From: a virus
Reading direction: 5' to 3' (one strand)
IMG/VR virus record: IMGVR_UViG_3300009605_000142
Location: 1 to 24,344 of that record
Length of the DNA: 24,344 nt
The notes under the pieces were generated by a model, which searched no databases, was not told the origin of the DNA, and worked only from the letters and a program-made list of their open reading frames with translations. The translations under genes and the position numbers were made by a program. Every line of letters starts with the position of its first letter. The stretch's first letter is position 1. Of this stretch, positions 3,001 to 24,344 are shown in pieces.

Positions 3001-6000
3001 AAGGTTGATTATTATCCAAACATCCTGAATCAGATAAATTTGCGGCCTGCCAGAAAATATCACTAGAACTAGATTCTGCAACCGATCCACAACCATAATT
3101 CTGACTTCCATACGCAACTTGGCAAAGACCCAAACCTAATCTATTGTTGTTCAGAAGTCTGCTTAAATCAGGTGCGTCATTGCCAGGACTCTTTATAGTG
3201 CATGATGCTCCTGGCCACATTCCAAACACATTATATGGACCATCATATGAATAATTCTCAATAGAAGTAATATAATTATTCCAATCACCCGCAGTTGGAA
3301 ATTCTCCAACATTCCATACTATAGGAGAAACAAACGGAGGATTGGAATCGGGTATAGAACCTATTTCGGGATATCCTTGATGACTTCCACGACCCATTGC
3401 GTGTCCCTGACCAGCAGAAGAACATAACCACTTTGGGAACCCCCAACTGTTCCAATAACCATCACTTCCTCTTGTCAATATTATATCAAGAGCATCCCAG
3501 TCCTCGGTTGCATTTGTATCAATGGTTGCATTGCTGATTTGAGTATCCCAAACAAATATATGCCAACCACCTGGACCATCACAGATATCAATATCTTCAT
3601 CTGGTTCCTGATAATAACAATCACCACATGCTTGGCCAGGACTCCAAGTACAATCACCACAAAGTCCTTCATCTATTCTCGCTTGACATTGTTCCCAAGT
3701 ATAATACTGACACGCACATCCAGCGGTGCCATCTTCATCTCCGTCACAACAACACCTACCAGAAACTTCTCCCCCCTCATCAACACAACAATATACTGCA
3801 TTCTCACCCTCACATTGTTGAAATATACCTTGGAAAATTCCGCCTGAGTCTTTACAACCTATAGGAGTTGCCTGAACACATGTCCCTTCTGAAAGACAAC
3901 ATGCACCTTTTATATGGTCACAACAATCAAATATGTTTCCATCTTCATCATGACCAGTGCTATTATCATCACATATTGAATATGCGTCCATCCATGTACC
4001 AGACATATTAGTACATTCAGACTCAGACATACCAATTCCATTTTCACCAGCATCACAAAAACCACCAATACAACAAGCACCAAGTGGTTCACAATCTACG
4101 CATTCTAGATCACCTCTTGCACCACCATTACCACGAGGCCCAGGCGTGCAGGTAGTGTCTGTACAATCACCATTTAGATCGGAATCCCACTCACCCCCAA
4201 CCGCATCACACCAACCTAATGTATACCACGGAACCGTTACTCCATCTATACAACAACAACCTAGTTGTTTGGGAAGACAAGTATCTGTAGTCGCAGTAGG
4301 ACAAGAGTTACATAATTGAGTCATACAATCTGGAGTATGCGGATTCCCATCATCGTTTACATCATGGGTAAAACACGGAAGCATACACTCTGGAAACTCC
4401 TGATTCACTCCACAATCCCACAACATAATTTGACGACAAAGTGTATCATCTGACACATCGTAATTTTCATCTATGTAATCTGCTACCTCTTGCAAACTGC
4501 CTCCTAATATACAACCCCGCGCACCATCCACATCTATCCAACAACCCATCCAATCGCCTTCAGTTTCTTCTTCATCACTACAACAGACAAAGTTTTCATA
4601 ATAATGTCCAGCAACTTGATCACAAAAATGATTGGTAGTATTATAGCAACCCGTAGGATCACCCAAACATGGTTCTTCTAAACAACATGCCCAACCACTT
4701 CCGCACGGATATCCTAAAGACTCACATTCAGAGCAACTTGAATTTGCTCCATAGAATGTGGTTGTTATTCCATGGTCTGTCTCTATACAGTCACATTTTT
4801 CAGCAGATATCTGTAAGCAATCTATGCAATTTGTTGATGATTCCCCATTTGTCCATGATTCGATACAGCACGCACCAATAACCTCGTCTGGTTCGTCGCA
4901 AGGATAATCATTACAACTCCAACCATTTCCGCATATTGCGCCTGGAACAAAATATCCTTGGAAGTTTTCACAATCTTCTTCCAGACTTTGAATACATGTG
5001 TGCATTGTGCAGCAAGCACCCTCTAAGGATTGATTACAAGGAGTGAACAAACAATCTCTTAATTCATAAAAAGATTCAAAATCCTCATAACCTTCACAAA
5101 CTTCTCTGGTAATATAATCTTCACATTCTCCACCATGACAACATGCGCCTGGTATATCTGGATATCCTGCAAAAGTAATACCATATCCACTACTTGGATT
5201 TAAAGGCAACCATTTTCTAGAACTACCATCTCCCCCTGAAATAGTTTCTGAATAAACAAAGTTGAAAATATCAATCTTATCACTAAACACAACTTCTTCA
5301 CGATCTGTAAAATCAACATCTGAAGGGCCAGGATTTTTGAATATCTGCCATGGTTCCAAGGATCCATCACCCCAATGATCTGTTACGAGTCCATGAGATT
5401 CAGCATTATGTAAAATTAGTGTTAGGGTTTCTACAAAACCATGTGTGATGCCTTCACTGGTTGGGAAAGGATCCTCTGGAAGATGAATATAACCCATAGT
5501 TGGTCCACAATAAATTTTTTGTATGTGACCATCACCGAGATTTAAATTCACATCTGTTACTTCATTTAAAGCATGTCCAACTGCATATGCAGTTATCCCT
5601 GCATGAAGTCCATGTCTTTTTATAATTTCTCTATGATCAACAAGTCTCGTTGTTAATGATTCATGATAAGCAGATGCTCCTGCTGCGGGAGTAGGCCATG
5701 CACTTGCATTCCAAAAAGTTAATGTTGCTCCATCTGCAAAACCATCTTTGGTAATATAAAGCAACTGACCAGTTAATCCCATATCAATGGCATCGGCAGA
5801 GTCTGCACTAATTCCACCAACAAATACAGTTCCTAAAGTAGATCCTTGAGCAAAATGAACATCACTACCAGATGCATCGAGTTCTTTAAACACAACTTTA
5901 GGATATATGTAATTGTCTGGATCAGAAAAATCTCCTGGCTCAATACGAGAAACTATAGATTCTCCATCACCAAGAACAACAATACCAACTTGACCAACTT

Positions 6001-6406
6001 CAGCATTTTCTCCACTTGGTCCAGTAATACTTGCTACAACACCATCATCTACGGCGGGGTGTGGTCCTGGAATTAAAACTCTAGTTCCATTATCCAAGTA
6101 TAAAACCAAAGAATTCATTACAGGATTGCCAGTTGTTCCAGTTATACCAACATAGCGATAGTAATGATAATCTCCTGTAATTCCCTCGTGTCCTTCAAAT
6201 GTATATCCTTCAGGAGTTGTCGAAACTGGTCCACAGAATCCAAACTGAACACCAGTTCCACCACAACTTCCAAAGAACCCTGCTGGGCCAGTTGGGCCAG
6301 TAGGACCAGTTGGTCCAGTAGGACCAGTACCGCCTATAGATCCACTATAGTCAGCCCCTACTGCACCAGTGGGTCCTAAAACACCAACATGACTACTGTT
6401 TGACAT
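1..6406 (-). CDS. Giant collagen-like, cysteine-rich tail adhesin (3' end beyond window)
   Basis: Starting from the ATG at 6406, I checked every codon to the left edge and found no stop, so at least 2135 codons are open and the C-terminus lies outside. A GGAGG Shine-Dalgarno lies 14 bases upstream, inside the end of the previous gene, whose TAA is 2 bases away. Residues about 9-40 are Gly-X-Y repeats (GPT units) typical of trimeric collagen-like phage fibres. Residues 41-415 are a Gly/Asp-rich region I do not recognise. Residues about 418-945 carry some 72 cysteines in repeated modules opening GACC, with DxDxDG-like loops. Residues about 1158-1253 contain YVPSIHELSFLMRRI followed by NPTWSSS, resembling a DUF1566/Lcl C-terminal domain. 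More GACC modules follow at about 1351 and 1571. The last visible 400 residues are rich in Trp, Asn, Gly and Ser. A distal baseplate or fibre adhesin is the likely role, by inference from context and the collagen stalk. The coding frame is certain; the function is not. Confidence 0.85.
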   Translation of the reverse strand, partial: MSNSSHVGVLGPTGAVGADYSGSIGGTGPTGPTGPTGPTGPAGFFGSCGGTGVQFGFCGPVSTTPEGYTFEGHEGITGDYHYYRYVGITGTTGNPVMNSLVLYLDNGTRVLIPGPHPAVDDGVVASITGPSGENAEVGQVGIVVLGDGESIVSRIEPGDFSDPDNYIYPKVVFKELDASGSDVHFAQGSTLGTVFVGGISADSADAIDMGLTGQLLYITKDGFADGATLTFWNASAWPTPAAGASAYHESLTTRLVDHREIIKRHGLHAGITAYAVGHALNEVTDVNLNLGDGHIQKIYCGPTMGYIHLPEDPFPTSEGITHGFVETLTLILHNAESHGLVTDHWGDGSLEPWQIFKNPGPSDVDFTDREEVVFSDKIDIFNFVYSETISGGDGSSRKWLPLNPSSGYGITFAGYPDIPGACCHGGECEDYITREVCEGYEDFESFYELRDCLFTPCNQSLEGACCTMHTCIQSLEEDCENFQGYFVPGAICGNGWSCNDYPCDEPDEVIGACCIESWTNGESSTNCIDCLQISAEKCDCIETDHGITTTFYGANSSCSECESLGYPCGSGWACCLEEPCLGDPTGCYNTTNHFCDQVAGHYYENFVCCSDEEETEGDWMGCWIDVDGARGCILGGSLQEVADYIDENYDVSDDTLCRQIMLWDCGVNQEFPECMLPCFTHDVNDDGNPHTPDCMTQLCNSCPTATTDTCLPKQLGCCCIDGVTVPWYTLGWCDAVGGEWDSDLNGDCTDTTCTPGPRGNGGARGDLECVDCEPLGACCIGGFCDAGENGIGMSESECTNMSGTWMDAYSICDDNSTGHDEDGNIFDCCDHIKGACCLSEGTCVQATPIGCKDSGGIFQGIFQQCEGENAVYCCVDEGGEVSGRCCCDGDEDGTAGCACQYYTWEQCQARIDEGLCGDCTWSPGQACGDCYYQEPDEDIDICDGPGGWHIFVWDTQISNATIDTNATEDWDALDIILTRGSDGYWNSWGFPKWLCSSAGQGHAMGRGSHQGYPEIGSIPDSNPPFVSPIVWNVGEFPTAGDWNNYITSIENYSYDGPYNVFGMWPGASCTIKSPGNDAPDLSRLLNNNRLGLGLCQVAYGSQNYGCGSVAESSSSDIFWQAANLSDSGCLDNNQPCWGGGDCGDTPDECGGAEGGCGLRMYVPSIHELSFLMRRIQEGFINDEPDGDFGSSGINPTWSSSFRMGTNYQTNPLYAYVQAGSNLNYKVSLVASKQSNGDETWKSQLLFARWLDMSSGGNSKGFFPWEPNPCDIEGNCDDHWLVGKKYQLQTDGMNMIYLGKYCPGKTMVRGILGEEGGGAYVGAQLALHGQHEGGYDAEEPSGNVVSDPLPVGACCTCDGCKDEFNQYECLAESGLIYTGSNPADNPAGWPIWCGRFDDATDAPPHAWTTTIGKETYWKGDPLPYDLDMILHSRDLDYGDGGYIIHQNCGTHCCPISEYCIGCTGVCDKDELSASCPDTTQCLDDITSLSETPCAGSWQGEDRSSGIILGKCCFTDGTCTDGCDSDLSNYYEYGNEDPYTTHHTKCGCETAGGVWNPCETLGDDCSAGCECAGACCTSKACHDGWSYVDCTGIGGVHTCNELCADIECDIDDPDGPIVGDNSNCCDDNEDGVNDYWCLNCVCDKQINVDETGSLNSCGTYKAGEYVPRSCLGASNFDQGDDVVGVPTDELPLMGVYAGCGGQYVSGVKWGSSDPSETQAYDFTSASYACDGCDVTKFVNDPTAINKVEPMIDTSGPNQWNFKNTGFIVPCTSSPCDTGTDPYDRNAIFPYAGEELNDGTGWENYGCPCHPSFSLFDCAYDDTLPIGACSPGCCHWDWDIAGQQPNDNDGWITFDVGTNSYGNDWGDWVKHDFGRGRDLWSSQRIIINSTFSSWSERPHTDDYWIINYPMAALIPTNPWSSTPEDWRGINNTNPRYQGYPDSSTSIWDDGDSGVIHWPPKIWNTNTHTTAWNEHIEDLQINDYVWNPNSLSIGGWFPKSIVDDDPGPSTTPSWGQGSGPLHNTIYGGWEIAHWWAMASGANGVNALIGDSYPNWPGDTSGVKDRYRFTFGRSFNGPSYWCPPYAGIHKMTTDTDSWWHTNNVAGEVGTLGGSSWDVPLQDEEITPKGISPCYARKTKI
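1510..2360 (-). repeat. Second cluster of GACC-type cysteine modules
   Basis: A second block in the same frame has GACC starts near 2355 and 1695 and a GKCC variant near 1884. It ends with an Asp/Asn-rich loop, DDNEDGVNDYWC, at about 1500-1553. The DNA of two module starts shares an identical 16-base stretch, agtacaacaagcaccc, at 1682-1697 and 2342-2357. This suggests descent by duplication, or gene conversion between modules. Confidence 0.65.
3560..5155 (-). repeat. Array of degenerate cysteine-rich GACC protein modules
   Basis: Within the giant adhesin, modules beginning Gly-Ala-Cys-Cys recur with their starts near 5154, 5021, 4877, 4081 and 3907, with variants GCCC near 4263 and RCCC near 3757. 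A typical module has the pattern GACC, about 4-6 residues, C, about 7-10 residues, C, a Gly-rich stretch, then C and C. The module near 3907 reads GACCLSEGTCVQATPIGC at its start and is the closest to the form I know from secreted proteins of planctomycetes and related bacteria. I count about 72 cysteines in roughly 530 residues. The pattern is visible directly; the kinship with the bacterial repeat is from memory of that family and has not been searched. Confidence 0.75.
6285..6329 (-). repeat. Tandem 9-base collagen-like repeat (five units)
   Basis: Five consecutive 9-base units, read on the plus strand as GGNCCAGTT or GGNCCAGTA, encode Gly-Pro-Thr triplets near the N-terminus of the giant adhesin. 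Units differ only at the third and last bases. Such arrays can change copy number by slippage, which would alter the stalk length. Confidence 0.85.
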
Positions 6407-7539: not shown

Positions 7540-9075
7540 TTATGTTTTAATTTTTAGATCAGCACCATCTCGCCAAACAGTCCATTGATCTGCTGGTTCT
7601 GCCGCAGCGAGGTTTGTAAGTAATAGATTTTTAACTGATAATGTGTCAAGTATTGCAGCATATGAAGTACTATTTTTTCTAATAATCCAATTCATAGTAA
7701 CATATGGAGGCAAAGTCTCTTGTTTGTGGGCCCATCCAGTCATTTCCATACCTCCCTCATAATAACTCCGCACACCACTACCAAACGGAGTAATTGGTTC
7801 ATCATATGATTCGTTTTCGAAAATCAAATCCATGCTTCCAGTTCCACCAACTCGATTCAACACAGAACTGGTGTTTGGGCTACCCAGTCCATACGGTAAT
7901 GCAACACCTGATGGTTCTGCGCCCAAAACAAATCTATTTCTAAGATCTGGTGCTAAACAAGAATAAACTCCAGCATTATTGCTTTCGTCATTTACTAGTT
8001 GAACTCCATCTACAGGATCACCATTAAGATCAACAAGTTGAAATCCACTAATAGGATTACCTGCTTGTGCTAATGGAAATGTGCTAGGAGTACTTACCAT
8101 ATATTTTATATTTAAGTGTTTGTTTTCACCACTTCGTATTCTTTCAGCATCACCACCAGCATAGTTATCTGTGGTATCATCAAAATTTTGATTTCTTGCC
8201 TGGAAAACATCGTTTACTTCAACATCTTCATAGGAATTATACACTGATTGTTTTACAAAACAAAAATCACCAGAAACACCTACTACAACACCAGCAATGG
8301 TCCTACCTCCTACTGCACCATAAACATACCCATCAAGATCGCCCGATCCCCATGATCTATCTGTTTTTAATAATTCAACCCACCCATATTGTAATCCAAC
8401 ATTAGTATAATATTCAGAGTTTGTACTTACAGGAATGCCTGGAACTGTAGCAGTTGAATCAGCACCATCACCATCACATAAAGCCCAACCCGTTGGAGCA
8501 TTCTTCCCAGCCCATGCTTGAACTGTGCCAGCGGGGATAAGCCCGTCTAGAGAAACAGCAACACTTCCTCCAAGATGACTTCCAACATAATTTGTTACCA
8601 AACCAAAAATATTACCCGATGCATCTTCTGCTAATCTAGTAATAACTGGTTTTGCAACCCACCCAGGCGTAGAAGGTCTGGTTGGAGTCATATATCCAGC
8701 AGTAAGACCGCTGAGAAAATAAACATCATCCTGCGTGATTCCCTCACCTCCTTCAATAACTCCTCCCACCTCAAACAATTCATTTATGGTAACAGTTCCT
8801 CCCATTGTTAATTCAAAACTATTAGTACTTAAAACATCTGAAACAATTCCAACAACTTCTGCATTATATGGAGTATCTGCCTGAGCAAGACGATATTCTG
8901 CGGCTGTTCCATCAACACCACTATTCCAACGAATTGCTGAACCAAGTTTAAAACCATGACTATCTTGAGTTATAGTAATTGCTAATCTTGAACCTACAGC
9001 ATTTGCACCATGAACACAAACACTAGGATTCATAATTGAAGTACTTTGAGTATTGGGATCAGATAAATTTGCCAT
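7540..9075 (-). CDS. Tail-collar domain fibre protein
   Basis: This 511-residue protein has a clear phage tail-collar domain (Pfam Tail collar, as in T4 gp12-type short fibres). Residues about 180-204 read IPAGTVQAWAGKNAPTGWAL then CDG, the classic collar motif. LRNRFVLGA near residue 378 and LPPYVTMNWIIRK near residue 453 are the usual later landmarks. About 170 residues lie between the first two landmarks, so the domain is expanded. Residues about 38-165 form a separate module (HGFKLGSAIRWNSG, then AEVVGIVSDV, then DVYFLSGLTAGYMTP) that recurs twice in the upstream long fibre. AGGAGA at 9086-9091 is the ribosome-binding site and overlaps the TAG stop of that gene. It probably forms a trimeric fibre at the baseplate rim. 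Collar identity is strong; the receptor is unknown. Confidence 0.93.
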   Translation of the reverse strand: MANLSDPNTQSTSIMNPSVCVHGANAVGSRLAITITQDSHGFKLGSAIRWNSGVDGTAAEYRLAQADTPYNAEVVGIVSDVLSTNSFELTMGGTVTINELFEVGGVIEGGEGITQDDVYFLSGLTAGYMTPTRPSTPGWVAKPVITRLAEDASGNIFGLVTNYVGSHLGGSVAVSLDGLIPAGTVQAWAGKNAPTGWALCDGDGADSTATVPGIPVSTNSEYYTNVGLQYGWVELLKTDRSWGSGDLDGYVYGAVGGRTIAGVVVGVSGDFCFVKQSVYNSYEDVEVNDVFQARNQNFDDTTDNYAGGDAERIRSGENKHLNIKYMVSTPSTFPLAQAGNPISGFQLVDLNGDPVDGVQLVNDESNNAGVYSCLAPDLRNRFVLGAEPSGVALPYGLGSPNTSSVLNRVGGTGSMDLIFENESYDEPITPFGSGVRSYYEGGMEMTGWAHKQETLPPYVTMNWIIRKNSTSYAAILDTLSVKNLLLTNLAAAEPADQWTVWRDGADLKIKT

Positions 9076-9085
9076 TATTTAATAT

Positions 9086-9091
9086 TCTCCT
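9086..9091 (-). promoter_or_regulatory. Shine-Dalgarno overlapping upstream stop
   Basis: AGGAGA shares its first two bases with the TAG stop (9090-9092) of the long fibre gene and lies 10 bases before the ATG of the collar fibre. A ribosome ending the long fibre gene covers this site, so coupled translation of the two fibres is likely. The same stop/SD overlap occurs before the gp7-position gene (AGGAAA, 16326-16331) and before the 213-residue gene (AAAGGAAG, 13182-13189). Confidence 0.75.
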
Positions 9092-12000
9092 ATTGAACCT
9101 GTGTTGGTAAGGCGTTGTTTAATTCTGAATCTGCTTCATAGTGAACAACAACTGTATCCAATCTAGCAGAACCATATGGTACTTTAATAATCATACCATT
9201 TGGTGTACTTGCTCCGCAATTCACACTGAGAGCATTTGAATTCGTTTTTCTAACTTCCCCCAACGATCCTTTTGTTGAAGTTGTTGAACTTAAATCTCTT
9301 GCAACATCAACATTAAATCCTTCATTCTTTGTTCCTGTTGGTGACCAAAGAGTGCAAGATGGGTTAATTCTCATTCTTTCTGGTAATTCATAATTATATT
9401 GTGCTGTTCCAGGCACCATAAACCAAACACCACTAGTATCTGGTCTATTACTTAACATTGTATTGTAGCCAGGATATTTTCCAAACTCATAACTAGTCTG
9501 ATAGAAATACCAGCACTTTCTTAATTCTTCATTATAGTTAATGGAGGAGAATGGTGTTACCATATCACCTCTCTCAAGTTTAACATTTGCAAGATGTAAT
9601 TCATGATTAAAGTATATGTTCTTTATTCTGTCGTTTGGTGTACTTGTACATTGAGTATAGAATGCAAGACTTGCAAAGTGATTTGCAGTTATCCCTCCGT
9701 CTAGTGGGAAGTGATTTGCGCCCGAAGAACCTGCTACTCCAGAAAGTTCTGGAACAAAGAACGAGTATGCATAATTCGTCCAAGTTGTTGATAGCGCAAA
9801 GTCTGTAATTGGATGAATCAATTCGTTTGCTGTTAGACCTCGACCATCAGGTATTGTTGCCTCTCCCCGATGACCACTTGCACCAGCAACTGCTCCAGTT
9901 GTTCCTGTTAGGTTTTGAATCCATGCTAAGTGACAATCACCAATTCCACCACTTGATCTTGCCCAGAATGATGCGGTCATTACTTCACCAGCAAAGGAAG
10001 TTGCATCTGGTAATCTTTGTTCAACCCGATAGAACTCATTACTGTTTGTTCCACCATGATAAGTAATTTTACCTTTAATTGCGGCATAATAATTTGGATG
10101 GTTCGGTACTTGTGTCTCACTCTTCTGGAACTTCTTCCTCTGAAGAAGATAATCATAACTTCTATGAGTACCACCAGAAATTCCCTCATATGGATTGTTT
10201 GTGTTTGGCCCAGTTCCTGTTTGAGATATTCTTAACCAACGATCTGCAAAATAAGTATTGTTGGTCATCGTCCAACCATCATTACCATAACTATCTGTTG
10301 TTAAACCAACATTTCTTTGCCATATTGAGAAATCAGGATTATATAGTTCATTCTTGTTTACCCGTCGAACAGTATCAAAGGTTTCACCAGTTCCTGCACT
10401 ATTACCAAGAATTGGTGATGCAATTCCTATCGCTGCACCCCTAACTCTACTACTTAGACTTCTCATGCCAGGATCAGAATAATTTGGTGCATCTATATTC
10501 ATAACCAAAGTTGTTGAGTTAACCATGTCACCAAGTTTTACAGTCCACGCATTTCGAGGTAGGTCTGATGCCCAGCCTGGTGTTTCATCAAGATAAATTG
10601 GTCCAGGAGTAGTAACATTCTCTTGCCACGCAGGATCAGTGGCAAAGAATATTGTTCCTGATGTGGCAATTCTAACATACTTACTTGATGTATCTACATG
10701 AGTAACAACACCAATAACATGTGCTGCTGCTTCATCTGTAGAATATGCTTTTCTAAATACCGTTGTTGATCCTTTAGCATTCCAACTAAGCCAATCACCA
10801 ACAGAATAATCATCATCACCTGCATATGGTAATTCGAATTGTGTTGCATCATCACCACTTGCACCATTAATACCACTAGCGGTTCCCCAAGTACAACCAG
10901 TAGGACTTAAATATTGTCCTCTATAATGAAGTATAAGTGCTGTTTGTTTTCTCTCGTTGTTATGATCTTGTTCTTCAAGAGCAAGCAAAACAGGTTTACT
11001 AACATAACCAGCAACATTTGGTTGCTGCTTTTGTATCAATCCTTCATTACCGCCTGCTGATGTTGATAAGAAGTAAACACTGCCAGGAACTAATCCATCA
11101 CTAGCATCGTCAGTAATAATACTATTCCATTGTGCAGTTGTTCCTCGAACCTCACCACTAATAGTCATTTCAAATTCATCACCAGATACTATATTTGAAA
11201 CAATTCCAACAACCTCTGCTGCATTTATAAAATCATCATTGGGTTCAAACTGACCCATTGCAGAAGCATATGTATATCCGTTTGTTATACCACTATATCT
11301 AACACATTCACCAAACATAAATCCATGATTATTTTTCTTGATTCTTTTCTTATTTACACCACGATAGATGTTTGTATAACCATCTGTATCAAAATCTAGA
11401 AGAGGGCCAGCAGTATTACCAATTACTAATGCATTAGCAATACCACCAGTGGGTGTTTCATTTGTGTTTATGTCATGCCATGCTGTTCCTGTAACACCTG
11501 CTCGTCCACCTCTTCCATCAATATCTAAGAAATTATAATTTGATAATGTTGGTCCAAAGAACAATCTTACAACACCACCAGATACCCCTGCTCCCTGTGC
11601 TTGATTTTTGAAGAAGATATTATCTGTATCAAGAGTACAACCAGTATATCCATATGGACCAAACGGGTAAGCATCAGAAGTCGAACCTACATGAGCATGG
11701 TTGCCTTCTCCACCAGTTCCACCAAAAACTTCTTGGTGAAGAAGTTTTCCTTCTAACCAAAGACCTTCTTTAGTTCTCCAAAGACCTTGTTTGTGTAACA
11801 GATATGGTCTGTCAAAAGCAAATGCGTTATCAATATCACCACCAGGCGAATCTCGCAAAGCAGTAACTTCAGTTCCATCAATATAATATGGTCCAGTAAC
11901 AGAACCACCGATAATCAATCCTGCATGACGACATCCAACAACTGGATCCTCGTCTGTGTTTAGAATTATCAAACTTTCATTGAAGTTTTTACCATAAGTT

Positions 12001-14834: not shown

Positions 14835-16319
14835 TTAATATCCACAACTATTATCCTCCGTAGGATCATTAGGAGATCCTGCACTACTATCTATAGCGGT
14901 TAAGAAAACAAAATCTCCAAGGTGTACTCCACCAAATGTCATCCCAGAAGGAACCTGTTGCGTCCATGAATTTGGATGATGGAAAATTCTAAAGTAATCT
15001 ACCCCCATATTTAGCGCCGCTGTTCCTCCAGTAATAGAACCATCAGAAGATGTTAAACCAAGAGGAGCAGAAATACCTGCTGGTGTTAATGGAGCATGTG
15101 CGGTTGTCCCAGCAGGATCTTTAATCCATATACCACCACTATCTTCGAGATGAGTACTTTCTCCCGTAACACCACTCATATAAGGATTCCATCCACATGG
15201 ATATAAATCAACCGCAGATGCATTGTTTCTAAAATTAACAGTATCAGAAAATCTATAAGCACCATAAAATGCAATAATTGGTGTTTCTACAGGATAGACA
15301 TCTCCAGTATAACCTGGCATTTCAAACTCATCCCATATCGTAAAATTACCAGCAGCAAAAAGTCCCGCAGGGTGAATAATATTTTTCACATAAGGCCAAT
15401 AACTATCCCAAGGAACCTCGCTATTGATCAGATATGAATAATCTTGGAAAATCTTACTATCTTGTATTACACTTCTACCGCTTAATGTTCCTAGTTCGTC
15501 CCAATAATATACTCCACAAGGAGATCCAGGCGCACATCCTTCTGGACATGCAGGATAATCTCCTGACATAGCATAAGTACTGCCTGGGCTATAACATGTT
15601 ACTCCATGCAATCTGGCAGAGAAGGGGATTTCTCCGATGCCTTCTGCCCAATACCAACACGGACCAGTTGGGCTTCCATCAGGACCTGTTTGTCCCCAAT
15701 AAGTACAAGGCGCTCCAGTTGTTCCAGCAGATGCTCCTCTATATGGAGCATCTGAAAGTCTCATCACTCTAATTTTTGGATATCCTATCTCAACATCTTT
15801 TGCAAAAAATGATCTAAAGAAAAATTCATATACTTCTTGCAAACTTTTTAATTGATAAAAATCCTTAACAAAATGAAGAAAATTCCTCACATCAAGTGTA
15901 CTATTATCTGGATCTAAAAAGTCTACAAGAACTACAGGATCTAATGGTACTTGATCACCTATACCAGAGTTCTCCGCCCAGTTTTCTCTGCTTATTACTA
16001 TACGATCAGGAAAATCACCAGCATAAGTATTTTTTATTAACTTAATAAAAGAATCTTCTGTTAAGTCTAAATCTTGTAATATGTCAAGTCTTCCAAAATC
16101 ATTTTCACAATTTAACCATTTGTAAAATAGTCTTAAAAATTCAACAAATTTTGGATTCTCTTCAGTAACCCATGTGGGTAAACGATCTGCTAAGAAGAAT
16201 TGAAATGTACTAAAACATTCAGATTCTGAAACGCCAGCCTCGGCAAACCGAGCAGCGGCATCATAATGACCGCCAGGAGTCGGTCCCGTTACCGCAGCAT
16301 GTACTAAAGTAATAGTCAT
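14835..16319 (-). CDS. Baseplate wedge protein at gp7 position, with cysteine-rich insert
   Basis: This is a 494-residue protein. Residues 48-100 (PTWVTEENPKFVEFLRLFYK, then LDLTEDSFIKLIKNTYAGDF) and 146-190 (FLHFVKDFYQLKSLQEVYEF, then DVEIGYPKIRVMRLSD) are the helical blocks of a family widespread in T4-like phages of marine bacteria at the gene-7 place. Residues about 278-325 (SGRSVIQDSKIFQDYSYLIN, then VKNIIHPAGLFAAGNF) are the family's usual closing block. Residues about 203-275, between these blocks, hold six cysteines with Gly/Pro/Tyr/Trp-rich sequence that looks inserted. The last 150 residues are Gly/Ser/Thr-rich and variable. It should connect gp6 and gp8 in the wedge. The family match is good; orthology to T4 gp7 (1032 residues) is inferred from position. 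AGGAAA at 16326-16331 is the ribosome-binding site. Confidence 0.8.
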   Translation of the reverse strand: MTITLVHAAVTGPTPGGHYDAAARFAEAGVSESECFSTFQFFLADRLPTWVTEENPKFVEFLRLFYKWLNCENDFGRLDILQDLDLTEDSFIKLIKNTYAGDFPDRIVISRENWAENSGIGDQVPLDPVVLVDFLDPDNSTLDVRNFLHFVKDFYQLKSLQEVYEFFFRSFFAKDVEIGYPKIRVMRLSDAPYRGASAGTTGAPCTYWGQTGPDGSPTGPCWYWAEGIGEIPFSARLHGVTCYSPGSTYAMSGDYPACPEGCAPGSPCGVYYWDELGTLSGRSVIQDSKIFQDYSYLINSEVPWDSYWPYVKNIIHPAGLFAAGNFTIWDEFEMPGYTGDVYPVETPIIAFYGAYRFSDTVNFRNNASAVDLYPCGWNPYMSGVTGESTHLEDSGGIWIKDPAGTTAHAPLTPAGISAPLGLTSSDGSITGGTAALNMGVDYFRIFHHPNSWTQQVPSGMTFGGVHLGDFVFLTAIDSSAGSPNDPTEDNSCGY

Positions 16320-16329
16320 TTATTATTTC

Positions 16330-18066
16330 CTAATTAACTAGTACAATACCATCATTAACAAGATTTAATAAAATGTTACCCTTTGCAAACACATTATTTG
16401 TTCTTGGTCGTAATCTTATTCTAAAATCACCAACAATATGTAATCCATCTAATTGTACTCTACCTTTTTTATAAAATACAGAACCAACACTAGTTTCAAA
16501 CAAAGCATTATTGTCTGAATAATATGCTCTAATTACTGAATTTCCATCATCTACCACATACACATTTTGAAGTTGTCCATCCTTCATAACATTTATATCA
16601 AATCCTTCTAAAACCGTTCCCTCTAATCCGCCTGGATCTGCTAATTCTGTATTAACGGAATATGATATAGAAGTTATAGGATCTGCCGCTGATGCACTAA
16701 AACTCTTTGAAATATATGGAATAATATTATCACCAACAAAACCAGAATCTTTTTCTAGCAAACCAACAGCAAATTCAGAATAATTAAACGCGCTTTCAAA
16801 GTCATTTAACTTATTAGATTCATATTCTCTAATGTATTGATTTATTATGTTTAATAAATCACCTTGAGTTGATGTAGTTGCATATGGATCATAATACACA
16901 TAACCTTCTAATAAAATATCTAACATATTTGGATCAACAAAAACAGGAAGAATAGAAACAACACACTTCTTTGTGACAAGTTCTTTTATCTGTTCCTTTG
17001 TTTCATTAGAAATTTCATTCATAGCATCTCCATATGCGGTAATAAAAACTTTCCCATATTGTGGTGGGTCTTGATCCTCACCCCCCCATGCATTTCCAAT
17101 TAAACCAAGGTTTGATTGTATTATCGTAGTTTTTAAATCGTTTGCGGTAACTGCTCTCCCTTGTGTTTGGAAAAATAGAGGCGCTCTTTGTTTTGTAGTT
17201 TCTATATCTTCTGGATTGCTTCCTCCAGCACCCCCCAATACTGTTGAAACAACATTAAGGTCTACTATATTATCAGTAAAGGAAGCAACACCATTTCCAC
17301 GTTCTCCTAAAGTCCTTAAAAAATGAAATGTTACTGTTGAATTATTATTAGGCCTGGCCCCTAAAATATTATCTCCAAAATAAACTTCATATCCCCCATC
17401 TACAGAACTCGAAAGAAAATATACTTTTTGTCCTGCGGTAACTCCAACAATCCCACCTTCAATATCATTAACATCATTCCACTCAGTGCCGACACCACCA
17501 TCCCCTGTCTCATTAACATAAACTTTAAGGGTAGAAGTATCTAAACCTTCTGTTGAATTTATTTTAAATCTTTGATGGGGTTGAGAATTTTCAACAAAGT
17601 CTCCGTGGTTGTCTATAGTCCAAGTCCCTTGCATAATATCAATTTCTCTCTCACCATTTACAACATAATCTCTAACAGGAGTCCATACCATACCATTACC
17701 AGAGAAAGCATCACCAGGACCGATGTTTACTTCTTGAGTTGAAGTAACTTTGATTGTTGCCCTTGCCCCCCTAGCAGAAGCAGGAAGATAACTTAAAGGT
17801 TTTACCAAAGACCCCACAGAATTTTTTTTGGTTGCAGTGTCTAAAAACGATTCGTTTGCAATCATGTTTGCATAATAAGAATAAAAAACACTGTTGTATG
17901 TTAACAAGTCTAATAATGTTGATAGCGCCGACCCTTCGAAATCATACCCCGAAAAAGAATCAGACTCTGTTAAATAGTTTTTTAAAGAATCTCTGATTTC
18001 ATAAAAATCTAAGTTGCCCAACATTACTATTGGATCTGAACTTGTACTTCCTTGAACATATGCCAT
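16330..18066 (-). CDS. gp6: Baseplate wedge subunit gp6 (baseplate J-like)
   Basis: This 578-residue protein has a clear gp6 N-terminus: LDFYEIRDSLKNYLTES, then FEGSALSTLLDLLTYNSVFY, then ANESFLDTATKKNSVGSLVK and PLSYLPASARGA, at residues about 19-102. The Gly-rich central domain includes YEVYFGDNILGARPNNNSTV near residue 230, then ETTKQRAPLFFQTQGRAVTA, the baseplate-J signature. gp6 forms the inner iris of the baseplate that opens on contraction, and its size is close to that of T4 gp6 (660 residues). The ATG directly abuts the TAA of gp25, and the ribosome-binding site AGAGGA (18075-18080) lies inside the gp25 coding sequence, so the two wedge proteins are translationally coupled. No unusual insertions are seen, which makes it a useful anchor for phylogeny. 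Confidence 0.96.
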   Translation of the reverse strand: MAYVQGSTSSDPIVMLGNLDFYEIRDSLKNYLTESDSFSGYDFEGSALSTLLDLLTYNSVFYSYYANMIANESFLDTATKKNSVGSLVKPLSYLPASARGARATIKVTSTQEVNIGPGDAFSGNGMVWTPVRDYVVNGEREIDIMQGTWTIDNHGDFVENSQPHQRFKINSTEGLDTSTLKVYVNETGDGGVGTEWNDVNDIEGGIVGVTAGQKVYFLSSSVDGGYEVYFGDNILGARPNNNSTVTFHFLRTLGERGNGVASFTDNIVDLNVVSTVLGGAGGSNPEDIETTKQRAPLFFQTQGRAVTANDLKTTIIQSNLGLIGNAWGGEDQDPPQYGKVFITAYGDAMNEISNETKEQIKELVTKKCVVSILPVFVDPNMLDILLEGYVYYDPYATTSTQGDLLNIINQYIREYESNKLNDFESAFNYSEFAVGLLEKDSGFVGDNIIPYISKSFSASAADPITSISYSVNTELADPGGLEGTVLEGFDINVMKDGQLQNVYVVDDGNSVIRAYYSDNNALFETSVGSVFYKKGRVQLDGLHIVGDFRIRLRPRTNNVFAKGNILLNLVNDGIVLVN

Positions 18067-18567
18067 TTATCGAATCCTCTTTACTGCTATCTTTACTATA
18101 ACCGTCCTTGGGTTTGAGAGTTTAGTAATTGTTTTTAACTTATAAGATATTGAAATATTTAATGTGTCTTGATATTTGTCTGATGTAGCAATAGAAACAT
18201 TTTCTACTGTTATTCTTGGTTCATATAATCCTAATTGATTTTTTATTTTTTCCTGTATTTGAAATGTCTCAAAAAAATCAAACTCTATATCTTCAAATAA
18301 TAAATTACGAATATTACATCCCATAGTTGGTTTCCACGGTCTTTCATATGTATTTGTTAATACAATATTTTTAACAGATTGTTTTATAGCATCTCCATCA
18401 AATTTTTTTGCAACATCACCAGACAAACCAGCCTCTTGATATGCTAGGGTTGGTTTGAAGATAAAATCTAAATCAGAATAAACATAATCATGTAAAGAAT
18501 CAAAGGATAGAGATTCTTCTTCACGTGTTTGTCTATCACCTGTATACCCTCTACCATGAACTGCCAT
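18067..18567 (-). CDS. gp25: Baseplate wedge subunit gp25
   Basis: This is a 166-residue protein of the gp25/lysozyme-like wedge family. Residues 45-90 (GDVAKKFDGDAIKQSVKNIV, then RPWKPTMGCNIRNLLFE) and the E116-P117-R118 triad in LGLYEPRITVENVSI are the family hallmarks. The EPR motif is known to matter for attachment of the first sheath ring and for wedge assembly. Residues 1-25 are a polar extension. The protein ends KIAVKRIR, directly followed by the gp6 start. Despite the family's name it is not expected to be an active lysozyme. AAAGGAAA lies upstream of the ATG. Confidence 0.95.
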   Translation of the reverse strand: MAVHGRGYTGDRQTREEESLSFDSLHDYVYSDLDFIFKPTLAYQEAGLSGDVAKKFDGDAIKQSVKNIVLTNTYERPWKPTMGCNIRNLLFEDIEFDFFETFQIQEKIKNQLGLYEPRITVENVSIATSDKYQDTLNISISYKLKTITKLSNPRTVIVKIAVKRIR

Positions 18568-18608: not shown

Positions 18609-19925
18609 TTATTCGGGTTTACTGTCTCTAACTATAGTTAATTTTGTTCTATGTACATTTGCTTCAGTCATTGTATGTTTTGCAGACAAAATCATATACT
18701 TACCACTTAGTACACTTAAACCTTCAATATTCTCTCCTTCAACACCCATAGCAGCCTTTGGTAATTTAATTCGTATAATTGATCCTACTTTTATTGATAA
18801 ATCTCCAGGCACAATAATATCTAATACTTGTGTGAATAATAATTTTTTTTGTGCTACTCTTAACAGAGGAGTTATCTTAGGAGTATTCCAAAATCTAGCA
18901 TCAACACTACGAACATATTCTAGATACTCTGGATACTTTTCACCATATTCTGGAAAATTACATGAAGAAATATATTTTGGAAAAACACCATCTGTGTTGT
19001 CTAAGCAACCACAAACATCTCCAGTAAATCCACCAAACGCTCCATAAAAAGGAAACTTAGGATCGCTTTCTGTGAAGTCATCTTCTTCTTTTACATCAAT
19101 ACATTCATACACACCAATTGATGATTGATATGGTGGAAAGTGTCTTTGACGAACAAGAGCGTTTCCCATTGAAGCAGAAAAAGTAGATCCAGCAACTGGT
19201 GCATCTGGGTCTAAATCATATACATCATTATCTAAATATTCTGTTGGAAGCCAACCATACCACCAATATTTATTCATATCAGAACCAGAATATGTTGCAC
19301 CAAGATCTTCCGTTTCATTAATAAGATCACATTCAAGAGGAATATCGTTTATTGCATCTTTTACTTGCTGACAGGTGACCTCTTCTTCAACAGGCGGTGT
19401 TATATTATTTTCTGGAAATTCTCTTTGTATTGCTTTGTATGTACTCCACTTTTTAAAAATGTCTTCTAGTTTTTTTGCTTCTATTACTTTTTCTACTATT
19501 GGCTTTCTTACATTATTTTTAATTGATTTCATTATTTCTAAATCAAGATCAGTATTGCTATACCAAGAATGCAAAGGATTACCAACACCAAGTTTTGAAG
19601 AATAATCAAAACCATAAGAAGGATATTTTTGATGAAGTTTTGTTGCACCTTCACCTGCAATAATAGTTCCAGCATGTTCTAGTGGTATAATTGGTTCTGC
19701 TTCAATATGATTCCATTTTTCCCAATCTTCTGGATAAGAATATGTAATTCCCTCTCGAACAAATAGGGGTTCTGGATTTGGATTATTAGCGGGAGAAAAA
19801 TATTGTTGTGTTTTTAAATCAAAATGACATTCAGGACGAACGCATTCATATCTTTTATCATATGGATCTGCTCGCCAATCAGGACTATTAAAGATTGGAG
19901 TTGTGTTTCCTTCGTCATATGGCAT
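18609..19925 (-). CDS. Baseplate hub protein, gp27-like C-terminal part
   Basis: This is a 438-residue protein. Residues about 355-438 (LLRVAQKKLLFTQVLDIIVP, then GDLSIKVGSIIRIKLPK, then LSGKYMILSAKHTMT and LTIVRDSKPE) follow the pattern with which gp27-like hub proteins end: a 'VPG..LxVGdxI' strand, 'SGKYLIxxxrH' and '..LxxxKDS'. Residues 1-350 are polar, rich in Tyr, Pro, Asp and Glu, with eight cysteines in the whole protein, and are not recognised. A Lys/Glu-rich stretch around 130-170 is probably helical. The gp27 hub fits inside the wedge iris, binds gp5 and continues the tail tube. The N-terminal half of the hub appears to be encoded separately at 23175-24344, on the far side of the cysteine-rich gene. 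AGGGAGA precedes the ATG. The C-terminal assignment is a pattern match and needs a structural search. Confidence 0.72.
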   Translation of the reverse strand: MPYDEGNTTPIFNSPDWRADPYDKRYECVRPECHFDLKTQQYFSPANNPNPEPLFVREGITYSYPEDWEKWNHIEAEPIIPLEHAGTIIAGEGATKLHQKYPSYGFDYSSKLGVGNPLHSWYSNTDLDLEIMKSIKNNVRKPIVEKVIEAKKLEDIFKKWSTYKAIQREFPENNITPPVEEEVTCQQVKDAINDIPLECDLINETEDLGATYSGSDMNKYWWYGWLPTEYLDNDVYDLDPDAPVAGSTFSASMGNALVRQRHFPPYQSSIGVYECIDVKEEDDFTESDPKFPFYGAFGGFTGDVCGCLDNTDGVFPKYISSCNFPEYGEKYPEYLEYVRSVDARFWNTPKITPLLRVAQKKLLFTQVLDIIVPGDLSIKVGSIIRIKLPKAAMGVEGENIEGLSVLSGKYMILSAKHTMTEANVHRTKLTIVRDSKPE

Positions 19926-19954: not shown

Positions 19955-22900
19955 TTATGTACAATTACATGGCCAATTTCCTGGACCACCCTCACAAGGA
20001 CAAGTACACCAAGGATTATAATACCAAGTTTCGCTTTCGGGATCGTATGAGTGATAACTCCCGTCTACGCAACTAGGAGGATCACCATAACAATGATGTT
20101 CAACACAAGGAGGTTCGCATGAAGTGCAGTCGATATCGGGACAACAACCGCAGTCCTCGTGTTCATACTCGCCGCAGTCCCAAGTATTGCAGTTCGTAGT
20201 GGCACAGGTTGGATCATTATCCCAACCACACGGGTACAAATTCCCTACCGAGGATGAGCCATCGGCCGTCCAGTATGAAAAGTAATCCCTGTGCGACTGC
20301 CCTGTACAGGGCTGCGTGATATCACCATCACATCGACTGGCGCCAGTATGTTCGCCGTCATAAAAAACTATATGGTTTGGTATAATAGATAACATGCTGT
20401 TGGTGCTGCATGGCCATGTTGCAGGAACAGGTCCCTGTTCGTCTGTATCCCAATCAGTTCTCCAATTAATTCTATCTCTCCACCATTCACGCACTGGCGC
20501 GCCCGAGCAGGGCAAGTACTCATTGACCCATGTATTATATGAATCCTGAACAAACCACCCGTCTAGAGAACCCCAAGGAACACCACCATCCCAACCCTGA
20601 AGAGTATAGAGCAGATTGGGGTCAAATGGATCGAGCCACGGCAGTACCACAGCGTTTGGACAAGGTGCCCACGGCCGCGTATATTCGGCCCGCTCACCAA
20701 ATCCACCACATTCATTTATTTTTTCCAAACTACAAAAACTATTCCCACTGGTTTGCGTCCAGTACATCTCCGCAACCATTATTAGGTTTGACAACCAATC
20801 GCCGCGATGATGTTCAACTTCGTCGATGCCTCCCCACCCGCCGCCTGGGAAACACTTGTAATCTCGTCCACAACTGCCATGGCCCCCGTGGCTACCAGGA
20901 CCCCAGTACGAAGCGCCACGGTTGATAATTTGCTGGTTCCCGCCCTCGCGAGGCATCGAGATTGCTAAATGCCAAGGTTGTAAAAACTGCTGGCATTGAT
21001 ATAACCACGGAATACCGTTAATCATCTGACAAGGAGGGTCCCACGGATCGGAGTAGTCATCGCATGTCGAGTACCACTCCCGCGCCGGCGGGGCCCAAAA
21101 ACAATTTATATTCAACAATTCGTGTAAGTTTTCTTCACCGCACACTGACCCATCCAAGGCCTCGGTAAAATAAGTATGCCCATACCCATAACCCGCATAG
21201 AAAAACTGTCTAGTAGGTTCTGTGTGATCTACAAGACCACCATATTCATAAGAATTTTGATAACCAGCATAAGCACCACCCTCTAAAGGATGATTGCTAC
21301 AATTACAACATATTGCGCCTTCTGGAGGAAGGCCTTCCCCAGTTAACCCGTCGTAGCAGTGCCTTCCATGTCCTATTCCTATTCCTTCGCCACCACAAGG
21401 GGGATAAGCACACGGGCAATAAACATCTTGATCACCATCGTCATCCTGATCCCAGTCGTGCGGACCACATATGGTGCCCTCACCATGAAAACAGGCACGC
21501 ACTCCTGCCGGAACTCCAATTTCAGGAACGCCATTTTCAAATATAAAAAGAGGATTACAGTTTTCTCTTGTTGTGTGAATACATGTGGACAACTGACCCT
21601 CTTCGTTTACTTCACAAGGGGGGTCCCCCCACTCAGGCGCATAACAATCAATGTCAGGAGGTGGAGGATCGTCATCAGGAACGGGTACGACACACATACA
21701 ACATGCACCCATATCAGTTGGTGGATTGTGACAGAACTGGGAACAATCCAAATCCTGTTCTACACATCCCTCTCCCCAATGTGTAGAATCTAAAATTCTG
21801 CTTTGCCATCCATAACAAGCAGAAGTGGCCCAGTGAAAATGGTGCGCATGTGCATGGTGATCAAAATCTGTCTGTTTCAATGTGTATGACCACGCTTGCG
21901 CATGCTCTCGTTCGACAAGCAGGCCTGGCCTCTCGGGGTCACATTGATCCGAACCACTATGATAGTAGTGCCACCATGAAGAATAACCCCACTGTTCATC
22001 GGGACATTTACATGAACTGCCAACACTTAGTTCATTAATAATTGTTTTTTCTTGATCAATATGACTACAGGGCAGGAATTTTTTTAGTGCCACCTCTTCC
22101 CCCCATTCAGAAACAAAAATTTCCCACACCGCTGCTACGATCTTTTGCCATCCTTCCTGAAGAGTTACGCTCTCCGAATAGCCCCAGTTGAAGTATTTGC
22201 CGAGAACATTATCCCCAATATTAAATAACACTTGATGTGGAAGTGGGTTCATTTTACCACTTGAAAGTATTTGTGGTCCAAATCTTTCAACAATCAAATC
22301 AACAATTTCTTGTGCTGTTTGCCTATATTCTGGCAACAAAAAATGCACAGGAGACGAAGATCCACAAGGATGCTCACAATCGCCGAGATGCTGCCCACCA
22401 GGCCGCCTCCACTCAGTGGGCCATGGGTCTTCGCCCTGATTGTTGATTTGTCCACCCTGCCACCATTCACACCCTTCTTTTGCATAAGGAGTTTCGATAA
22501 CTTCTATTGGTAGTTCATGACAATCTGGTGGACCAAAATCCTGGCAATTACCTAAAAGTTCATCACCCTCAAGTGGTATTGTGTAATCATGGCCAGGTTC
22601 ATCAGGATCTTCATTGAAGGGAGAACATCCATAATAGTACCCACACATAAGCCTATATTCACACAGTCCAGTTGGTTTTACTCTTACTTCAAGTCCTGCA
22701 CGAACCCTTCCATCACCATCTACAAATTCGTTATTGATTTCATGAGCGGCCGCATTAACTTTTGGATGTATAATATCTTCGTCTATTAAGCACCAAGGAG
22801 AGCAAGGATTTTCATACCACTCTTTACAAACATTATATCCCAAATATGGTTTTAAACAATTATCTGGTCTATGAGGAAAACAATCACAGTGACTATCAGC

Positions 22901-23161
22901 AGGATACTCCCCATCGTCGTTGGGCTCCCCTGGTCCACAATACTTATAGGAACCACACAGAGATCCATACCCTTGCGATTCAAGTTGCTCACACCAACTC
23001 TCTACGGTTGGATATGGGGGAAATATACCATGAAAAAACTCATTGTTAAAGTTTGCTTCGCACCGTTCTTGATAAGAACAACCCCAATCCTGGCTATAAC
23101 CAAGCATTATGATTGCAGCAGGTCCTTGATTACAACAACAACACGATTTAATAATACTCAT
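19955..23161 (-). CDS. Extremely cysteine-rich virion-associated protein, function unknown
   Basis: This 1068-residue protein has about 78 cysteines by hand count, plus high Trp, Tyr, Gly, Pro and His. It opens MSIIKSCCCCNQG. A calmer, probably helical block covers about 278-363 (TAQEIVDLIVERFGPQ to VALKKFLPC). Residues near 432 read DHHAHAHHFHW, a likely metal-binding histidine cluster. MGACCMC near 485 and GAICCNC near 614 resemble the GACC modules of the giant adhesin, and DWDQDDDGDQDVYCPC near 570 resembles a calcium-binding loop. The last 70 residues are cysteine-dense (DCGCCPDIDCTSC) and end PCNCT. There is no signal peptide or membrane segment. It lies between two apparent halves of the hub, so it may sit at the baseplate centre or tip. 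GC is locally raised. There is no good Shine-Dalgarno before the ATG. The frame is certain; I do not recognise the family. Confidence 0.85.
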   Translation of the reverse strand: MSIIKSCCCCNQGPAAIIMLGYSQDWGCSYQERCEANFNNEFFHGIFPPYPTVESWCEQLESQGYGSLCGSYKYCGPGEPNDDGEYPADSHCDCFPHRPDNCLKPYLGYNVCKEWYENPCSPWCLIDEDIIHPKVNAAAHEINNEFVDGDGRVRAGLEVRVKPTGLCEYRLMCGYYYGCSPFNEDPDEPGHDYTIPLEGDELLGNCQDFGPPDCHELPIEVIETPYAKEGCEWWQGGQINNQGEDPWPTEWRRPGGQHLGDCEHPCGSSSPVHFLLPEYRQTAQEIVDLIVERFGPQILSSGKMNPLPHQVLFNIGDNVLGKYFNWGYSESVTLQEGWQKIVAAVWEIFVSEWGEEVALKKFLPCSHIDQEKTIINELSVGSSCKCPDEQWGYSSWWHYYHSGSDQCDPERPGLLVEREHAQAWSYTLKQTDFDHHAHAHHFHWATSACYGWQSRILDSTHWGEGCVEQDLDCSQFCHNPPTDMGACCMCVVPVPDDDPPPPDIDCYAPEWGDPPCEVNEEGQLSTCIHTTRENCNPLFIFENGVPEIGVPAGVRACFHGEGTICGPHDWDQDDDGDQDVYCPCAYPPCGGEGIGIGHGRHCYDGLTGEGLPPEGAICCNCSNHPLEGGAYAGYQNSYEYGGLVDHTEPTRQFFYAGYGYGHTYFTEALDGSVCGEENLHELLNINCFWAPPAREWYSTCDDYSDPWDPPCQMINGIPWLYQCQQFLQPWHLAISMPREGGNQQIINRGASYWGPGSHGGHGSCGRDYKCFPGGGWGGIDEVEHHRGDWLSNLIMVAEMYWTQTSGNSFCSLEKINECGGFGERAEYTRPWAPCPNAVVLPWLDPFDPNLLYTLQGWDGGVPWGSLDGWFVQDSYNTWVNEYLPCSGAPVREWWRDRINWRTDWDTDEQGPVPATWPCSTNSMLSIIPNHIVFYDGEHTGASRCDGDITQPCTGQSHRDYFSYWTADGSSSVGNLYPCGWDNDPTCATTNCNTWDCGEYEHEDCGCCPDIDCTSCEPPCVEHHCYGDPPSCVDGSYHSYDPESETWYYNPWCTCPCEGGPGNWPCNCT

Positions 23162-23174
23162 AATCTATACCAAC

Positions 23175-24344
23175 TTAATAATCTTCTGGAGTATCTTTAC
23201 AATCTGATTCTCCCGTAGAAGAACATTCACCATCCACACCATTTGCAGCATTAAAGAAATAGTGGGCTTCGTTATCTTGATCCCAATAAATCTTCATATT
23301 AACAACTGGATAAATTTCATCAACAGCAACATCATCGTCAATAGTTCCAGAAAGACCTATTGCTTCTATAACATTGTTTGATTCTTCGTTTGGTCCAATC
23401 AAATGATCGAAATTATATCCACCATCAGAACCACTTCCCATAGAACCTCGTATTGGTTGAATTTTAAAACAACTCTTTTCCCATGTTGCAGTATCTAATC
23501 GTATACCAGGCGATTCCCACCCAAGAGATTTTATGTGTGTATAATCATATAACCCATCATTTCCAGATTCCATAGTATTGAAACCTGCTCTTGCAAACAT
23601 ATCATATCCATGTTGTCCTCCGTTTATCCAATGAGGACCATCTTCTTTATACGCAACCCAAGAACGAATTCCTCCTCGATCAATTGGTTTTATTCTGAAG
23701 GAAGGTATGTTGTTTACATAATCAAAATCAAGATACACTTCAGCAAAAGCATATCTCCATTTAGCCTTATGTTCTTCTATTTGTTGAAATCCTACTAATG
23801 CAGCAGGGAACGAATCTTTTAAAACACAATTAACACGATAATGAAAAGTTTTAATATTCGATGATAACCAATCGGTGTATGCTTCCGTGTTTATTCTTGG
23901 AATACTATAAGTCATAGTACTAAACAACGCACCAGAATCCAAAAGATTTAATTCATTTAAAACATTAGATCCTGAGAGTGAAATAATTGCACTATAAGGG
24001 TCCCCTCCACATTCTTCATCCAATCCTATACTACCAGCAGATGCATAACAATAAACGCTACTTTCTTCTTCTTTAGATAATTGTTCTACAGATTTAAAAT
24101 TCCAATTCTCCATTCCTTGCCAGTAAAAAAAGTTTACGGCGTTTGGATTTTCCTTATCGGTTGACATCTCTGTTGCTTGTTGTATTAATTCGCCAATTGA
24201 TCTATGACTATCTTTTCTTATACTTTCATATGATCTGTCATTATATGATGGCCTATACCAAACATAATTAGAAGTTTCATCTAATTTGAGTCTATATCCT
24301 GCCTGTGACATATTATTTTGTTCTGTTTGGTGTGAATAATGTAA
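23175..24344 (-). CDS. Baseplate hub protein, gp27-like N-terminal part (5' end beyond window)
   Basis: The frame is open from the right edge. The first ATG is at 24311 (378 residues), but the 11 codons before it (TTA to AAT) contain no stop and no Shine-Dalgarno, so the true start is probably outside. RSIGELIQQATEM followed by VNFFYWQGMENWNFKSVEQL (residues 37-78 from that ATG) matches the gp27-like hub phrase in which a 'FFxxxxxGFxFKSIDSL' strand follows an N-terminal domain of roughly 100 or more residues. That domain would lie beyond the edge. ALFSTMTYSIPRIN near 130 fits the next hub strand. The protein ends in an acidic Cys/Asp-rich tail, DGECSSTGESDCKDTPEDY, and lacks the usual hub C-terminal domain, which appears instead at 18609-19925. 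This is inferred to be half of a split hub. Confidence 0.72.
   Translation of the reverse strand, partial: LHYSHQTEQNNMSQAGYRLKLDETSNYVWYRPSYNDRSYESIRKDSHRSIGELIQQATEMSTDKENPNAVNFFYWQGMENWNFKSVEQLSKEEESSVYCYASAGSIGLDEECGGDPYSAIISLSGSNVLNELNLLDSGALFSTMTYSIPRINTEAYTDWLSSNIKTFHYRVNCVLKDSFPAALVGFQQIEEHKAKWRYAFAEVYLDFDYVNNIPSFRIKPIDRGGIRSWVAYKEDGPHWINGGQHGYDMFARAGFNTMESGNDGLYDYTHIKSLGWESPGIRLDTATWEKSCFKIQPIRGSMGSGSDGGYNFDHLIGPNEESNNVIEAIGLSGTIDDDVAVDEIYPVVNMKIYWDQDNEAHYFFNAANGVDGECSSTGESDCKDTPEDY

Follow-up and report, generated by a model that had tools for sequence, protein, structure and literature searches.

A cysteine-rich protein family encoded at the break of a divided baseplate hub in T4-like phages, a candidate tail-tip structural protein

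The window analysed here, the whole 24,344-nucleotide stretch of IMG/VR virus record IMGVR_UViG_3300009605_000142, derives from a T4-like marine phage of the cyanophage/pelagiphage kind and encodes a large cysteine-rich protein whose gene is flanked by the two genes into which the baseplate hub has been split. The protein belongs to a family that keeps this slot from lineage to lineage, with a conserved core and cysteine-rich inserts that change fast. This family is absent from the databases searched, and the place of the gene makes the protein a probable component of the tail tip, braced by disulfides and in contact with the host or piercing it; our preferred reading, to which we give about an even chance, is that the slot protein is a structural protein of the tail tip, seated on a baseplate hub split in two.

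The slot ORF (19,955–23,161, on the minus strand, where the original prediction gave no strand) starts with ATG and encodes 1068 residues, of which 78 (7.30%) are cysteine. This agrees with the predicted count of about 78, and the other compositional features described at the time are equally borne out by residue positions and a composition count: CCCC occupies residues 7–10, the closing clusters include C1052, C1054, C1056, C1065 and C1067, and tryptophan and tyrosine make up 4.4% and 5.2% of the protein. The plus strand opposite is filled with stops, the five alternative frames of the same DNA yield 2.2–4.0% cysteine together with many stops, and a second assembly carries the gene on a near-identical contig (99.94% identity across 10.3 kb). 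The cysteine content had been called exceptional for a baseplate-region gene, which holds against the other complete ORFs of that region (0–2.0% cysteine); it is not unique in the window, however, because a fibre-like ORF (2–6406, minus strand) reaches 6.5%. This second ORF, at least 2135 residues long and open at the contig end, has collagen-like GPT repeats followed by 139 cysteines and six GACC motifs, and three of its domains score marginally above shuffled sequences with the GACC-repeat HMM discussed below.

In transcription order, the genes are a gp48/54-type tube cap, gp53, hub-N, the cysteine-rich ORF, hub-C, gp25, gp6, and further wedge and fibre genes, the upstream part being read from L002, an extension of the window. 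Hub-N lies partly within the window (23,175–24,311, minus strand); the 543-residue gene is complete in L002 (2209–3840), where it matches phrog_350 positions 32–267. Hub-C (18,609–19,925, minus strand, 438 residues) matches phrog_350 positions 350–427 with its residues 357–435. Beyond it follow the baseplate wedge genes gp25 (18,067–18,567, minus strand; PF04965, 6e-13) and gp6 (16,330–18,066, minus strand; phrog_219, 2e-111). A further wedge gene of 494 residues (14,835–16,319, minus strand), with partial matches to phrog_2885, phrog_701 and phrog_26741, is a short relative of the giant baseplate proteins (very long virion protein families).

Phrog_350 is the hub of T4-like cyano- and pelagiphages, and in the reference phages HTVC008M (a Pelagibacter phage) and S-T4 it is one intact, full-length gene; here, in contrast, its N-terminal and C-terminal parts match the genes on either side of the slot ORF, and the break has gained a new gene as well as several hundred additional residues. 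All ten contigs in which both sides are present (seven distinct lineages) match phrog_350 twice, hub-N at about positions 9–320 and hub-C at about 340–432, with the cysteine-rich gene between. In profile comparison, hub-N matches phrog_350 at 2.5e-19 and hub-C matches it at 1.7e-13, without overlap between the two, and both proteins have long lineage-specific stretches beside the break. The alignment of phrog_350 with T4 gp27 is weak (C-terminal barrel, 58 columns, 1.3e-4, 53% probability), so that “gp27-like hub” is a likely rather than a proven description; a direct profile match of hub-N to T4 gp27 was not significant.

Two cysteines near the C-terminus of hub-N are invariant (DGEC...DC, 12/12 sequences, with DGLCRC in the clade that is most distant). 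Hub-C has two invariant internal cysteines and, for the majority of members, cysteine near its N-terminus as well; conservation of these invariant cysteines was not seen in unsplit hubs. Hub-N, the slot protein with its CCC start, and hub-C all carry cysteines at or near their adjoining ends, a pattern in the sequences that hints at disulfides between the chains or at a metal site in common, and which we offer as a lead, not a result. In L017, the hub-C gene (7914–9824) itself encodes 38 cysteines (6%) and has cysteine-rich inserts of its own.

The original prediction recognised no family for the slot protein, and in part this stands: comparison with Pfam, PHROGs, NCBIfam, PDB sequences and, by tblastn, 50,697 phage records returned no credible match. 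A family conserved in position does exist, however, although it is uncatalogued. Neighbour-based and block-based scans of IMG/VR gathered about 15 distinct lineages in which a cysteine-rich ORF (3.8–18.4% cysteine) occupies the slot, and every relative with a readable neighbourhood has it between hub-N and hub-C, beside gp53 and gp25/gp6. The long form, in 11 lineages, has 3.8–8.3% cysteine and measures 844–1278 residues where complete (the copies in L008 and L014 are interrupted by a contig end or assembly gap), and the short form, in four, has 396–553 residues and 15–18% cysteine. CCC stands near the N-terminus of every slot protein, long or short, whose start is present. The window protein belongs to the family by its place between the N and C halves of phrog_350, its N-terminal CCC, and two of the conserved sequence blocks described next (B and C2). 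Scanning IMG/VR with block B returned only contigs already found through block C2 or the neighbour scans, so IMG/VR is probably exhausted at this sensitivity; the same block found no relative in GTDB genomes.

The 11 long-form lineages share a common core with conserved blocks, all of which are given here by their minus-strand position in the window. Block A (23,096–23,161; residues 1–22) joins the CCCC to a PAAIIMLG strand, with a strand predicted at residues 16–20 (family consensus CCC, PAAxIxxG). Block B (22,664–22,825; residues 113–166), beta-rich and taken from the alignment, reads CxxEDxIHPxV...NxxV...VRxGxE (consensus CxxEDxIHPxVxA...IxNxxV...VRxGxE), and block C1 (22,472–22,546; residues 206–230) has the motif PPDCHELP (consensus PxCxxLP). 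Block C2 (22,208–22,327; residues 279–318) is a helix followed by the strand RFGPQxLxxGxxNPxPxxIxF (consensus RFGPxxLxxGxxNPxPxxIxF), and block C3 (22,064–22,153; residues 337–366) is a helix with the end WGEEVALKKFLPC (consensus helix, GEEVAxxKF). A tentative block C4 (20,702–20,803; residues 787–820), a helix plus FCSLEKINEC, comes from hand-guided alignment and has a pLDDT of 65–81 in the AlphaFold2 model of L007. In L016 and L023, the distant blocks were aligned as fragments.

The AlphaFold2 models of L007 (residues 1–490) and of the window protein (residues 1–368) have low overall pLDDT, 58 and 61, and high confidence across the same blocks, which in the window model reaches 92–95 at residues 131–160 of block B and 94–97 at residues 281–310 of block C2; the modelled core is alpha/beta. 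Foldseek found no match at E ≤ 0.001 for the L007 core in PDB and BFVD or for the window core in PDB, and a PDB profile search with the core was likewise empty. The top rows from VIA-align, a short-chain oxidoreductase, tubulins and FtsZ at Z 4.0–4.6, fall within that tool’s “common” range, so a tubulin-like reading was dropped. No conserved catalytic motif was recognised in the slot protein, which leaves an enzymatic role unsupported, though conceivable.

Most of the cysteines lie within fast-evolving inserts, also on the minus strand. The first cysteine-rich variable insert (22,826–23,095; residues 23–112) is missing or different in relatives; the large hypervariable one (20,804–22,063; residues 367–786) is unalignable in most relatives and has raised GC3s; and the C-terminal variable region (19,958–20,701; residues 821–1068) is very rich in cysteine from about residue 978. 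When L022 is compared with L027, identity is 60% for the slot protein against 81–86% for its neighbours, and within the slot protein it is 80% for the conserved blocks and 53% for the inserts (the rest), a contrast that is somewhat inflated because the blocks were picked for conservation across the family. Codon use differs as well: GC3 at synonymous codons in the window is 0.35 in the inserts, 0.22 in the core blocks and 0.15 in the neighbours (insert vs. core, p = 4e-4). Over the whole slot gene, the window, L014 and L017 show a GC3 unlike that of the neighbouring genes, and the other relatives do not clearly do so; in the window it is about twice that of every neighbour, a rise focused in the inserts and unseen in most relatives.

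These features can be joined in a tail-tip model. The small alpha/beta core (blocks A–C) would dock the slot protein on both hub halves, the long, fast-changing inserts would fold through disulfides once the cell is lysed, and the braced inserts would form a hard, exposed tip in contact with the host, replacing or capping the usual gp5 spike. Against the model, several relatives have odd cysteine counts, so not every cysteine can pair inside one chain. The original prediction offered a disulfide-locked spike or tip decoration, a metal-binding device, or an enzyme of unfamiliar fold; of these three, the split hub, the spike-like position and the hypervariable cysteine-rich inserts best support the first. 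The family, its fixed slot, the divided hub, the conserved core, and the faster change and distinct codon use of the inserts are computational results, from which we infer the place of the protein in the virion, its disulfides, its spike-like role and its contact with the host.

Two or three places past the hub, HTVC008M and three Synechococcus phages have a gene that in three of the four carries a gp5 or central-spike annotation, and the slot gene, which directly follows hub-N, has a similar gp5-like position near the hub, consistent with a possible tip role. Unlike T4 gp5 and HTVC008M gp5, however, the slot protein has no match to the gp5 OB-fold, lysozyme or needle repeats and is far richer in cysteine, and it shows no recognisable beta-helix or PAAR-like spike feature. 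The OB-fold model PF06714 matches the gene at this place in HTVC008M, has a match in 0/11 slot contigs, and misses the annotated gp5 of S-T4 too. The needle-repeat model PF06715 has no match in the slot contigs, and this Gp5_C search is uninformative because the reference cyano- and pelagiphages give none either. No recognisable gp5 was seen near the slot, in contigs that are partial (at most 51.7 kb) and with gp5 models that miss known cyanophage spikes; given such partial contigs, gp5 may lie elsewhere in these genomes. Among pelagimyophages, gp5 is unusually divergent (PMC7029224).

A disulfide-reinforced contractile tail has a precedent in Agrobacterium phage Milano (PMC10811340), whose structural proteins average 2.1% cysteine, spread across sheath and wedges, and whose spike is ordinary (PMC10811340). 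Here, by contrast, the cysteines are concentrated in one hub-linked protein, at 7.3% in the window and up to 18.4% in relatives.

The alternative that survives best, possible if rather unlikely in our estimate, is that the slot protein is a receptor-binding adhesin on the baseplate rim or fibre base, its inserts tracking host receptors and its place in the hub gene order incidental. The fast evolution of the inserts fits this, as does the disulfide-type GACC repeat of which the short slot proteins are built: an HMM of the repeat, which has no hit in shuffled sequences, also picks up several of the long forms and fibre-region ORFs from related contigs. The window slot protein, however, has no scorable repeat (best domain −10.9 bits, with its shuffles reaching 6.6; a GACC motif at residues 485–488 does not score as a repeat), and the position between the hub halves is constant in about 15 lineages, unlike that of fibre genes. 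On the L008 contig (L019, 1–17723), six fibre-region ORFs have 5.9–11.2% cysteine, several of them bearing GACC, so modules of the disulfide type are widespread in such phages.

We think it improbable that the slot protein carries a von Willebrand A-like adhesion domain that has a metal site and that, in the window copy, has lost its metal residues. L007 and L008 do read IYFGVDN[TS]GSM past block C2, a DxSxS-like motif with a helix and then a strand after it, and gp164 of Bacillus phage 0305phi8-36, likewise from a baseplate/fibre gene cluster, is reported to contain a vWA domain (PMC2147016). Whereas the domain in gp164 is recognised as such, the motif here occurs in these two relatives and in none of the nine remaining long members, including the window protein, which reads GDNVLGKYF, so vWA membership is not claimed; Pfam gives no match, and no structural match is significant (PDB E ≤ 0.001; best Z 4.6).

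Quite improbable, too, is a metal-binding protein, with zinc or iron bound by its CCC, CxC and His-rich stretches so that the tip is stiffened, as it is by iron in other phage spikes. The window protein has nine CxC and six CC pairs, 4.1% histidine and a HHAHAHHFH cluster at about residues 435–443, and iron is known in contractile-tail spikes, for example at the HVH site of Milano (PMC10811340); several relatives, however, have only 1–2% histidine, and the inserts show no conserved cysteine spacing. An assembly chaperone or scaffold that helps to build the split hub and is no part of the mature virion would suit a gene always found between the two halves, but is very improbable for a hypervariable cysteine-rich protein of up to 1278 residues, unlike known hub chaperones, in a phage where a separate gp26-type hub gene (phrog_150) is already present.

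The tail-tip reading can be taken further, to a T4-like marine lineage in which the hub is split and a disulfide-knotted, hypervariable tip replaces gp5, bound to both hub halves by inter-chain disulfides; we advance this new design of puncturing tip tentatively, well below an even chance. The CCC start, EDxIHP and RFGPxxLxxGxxNPxP provide a clear marker for finding the family. Few parts of contractile tails are as conserved as the hub and spike, and a hub split around a cysteine-rich, fast-evolving protein would, if the reading is true, be a different way of building a puncturing tip; it would suggest that uncultivated marine phages have tips hardened by disulfides and a new place where variation is driven by the host.
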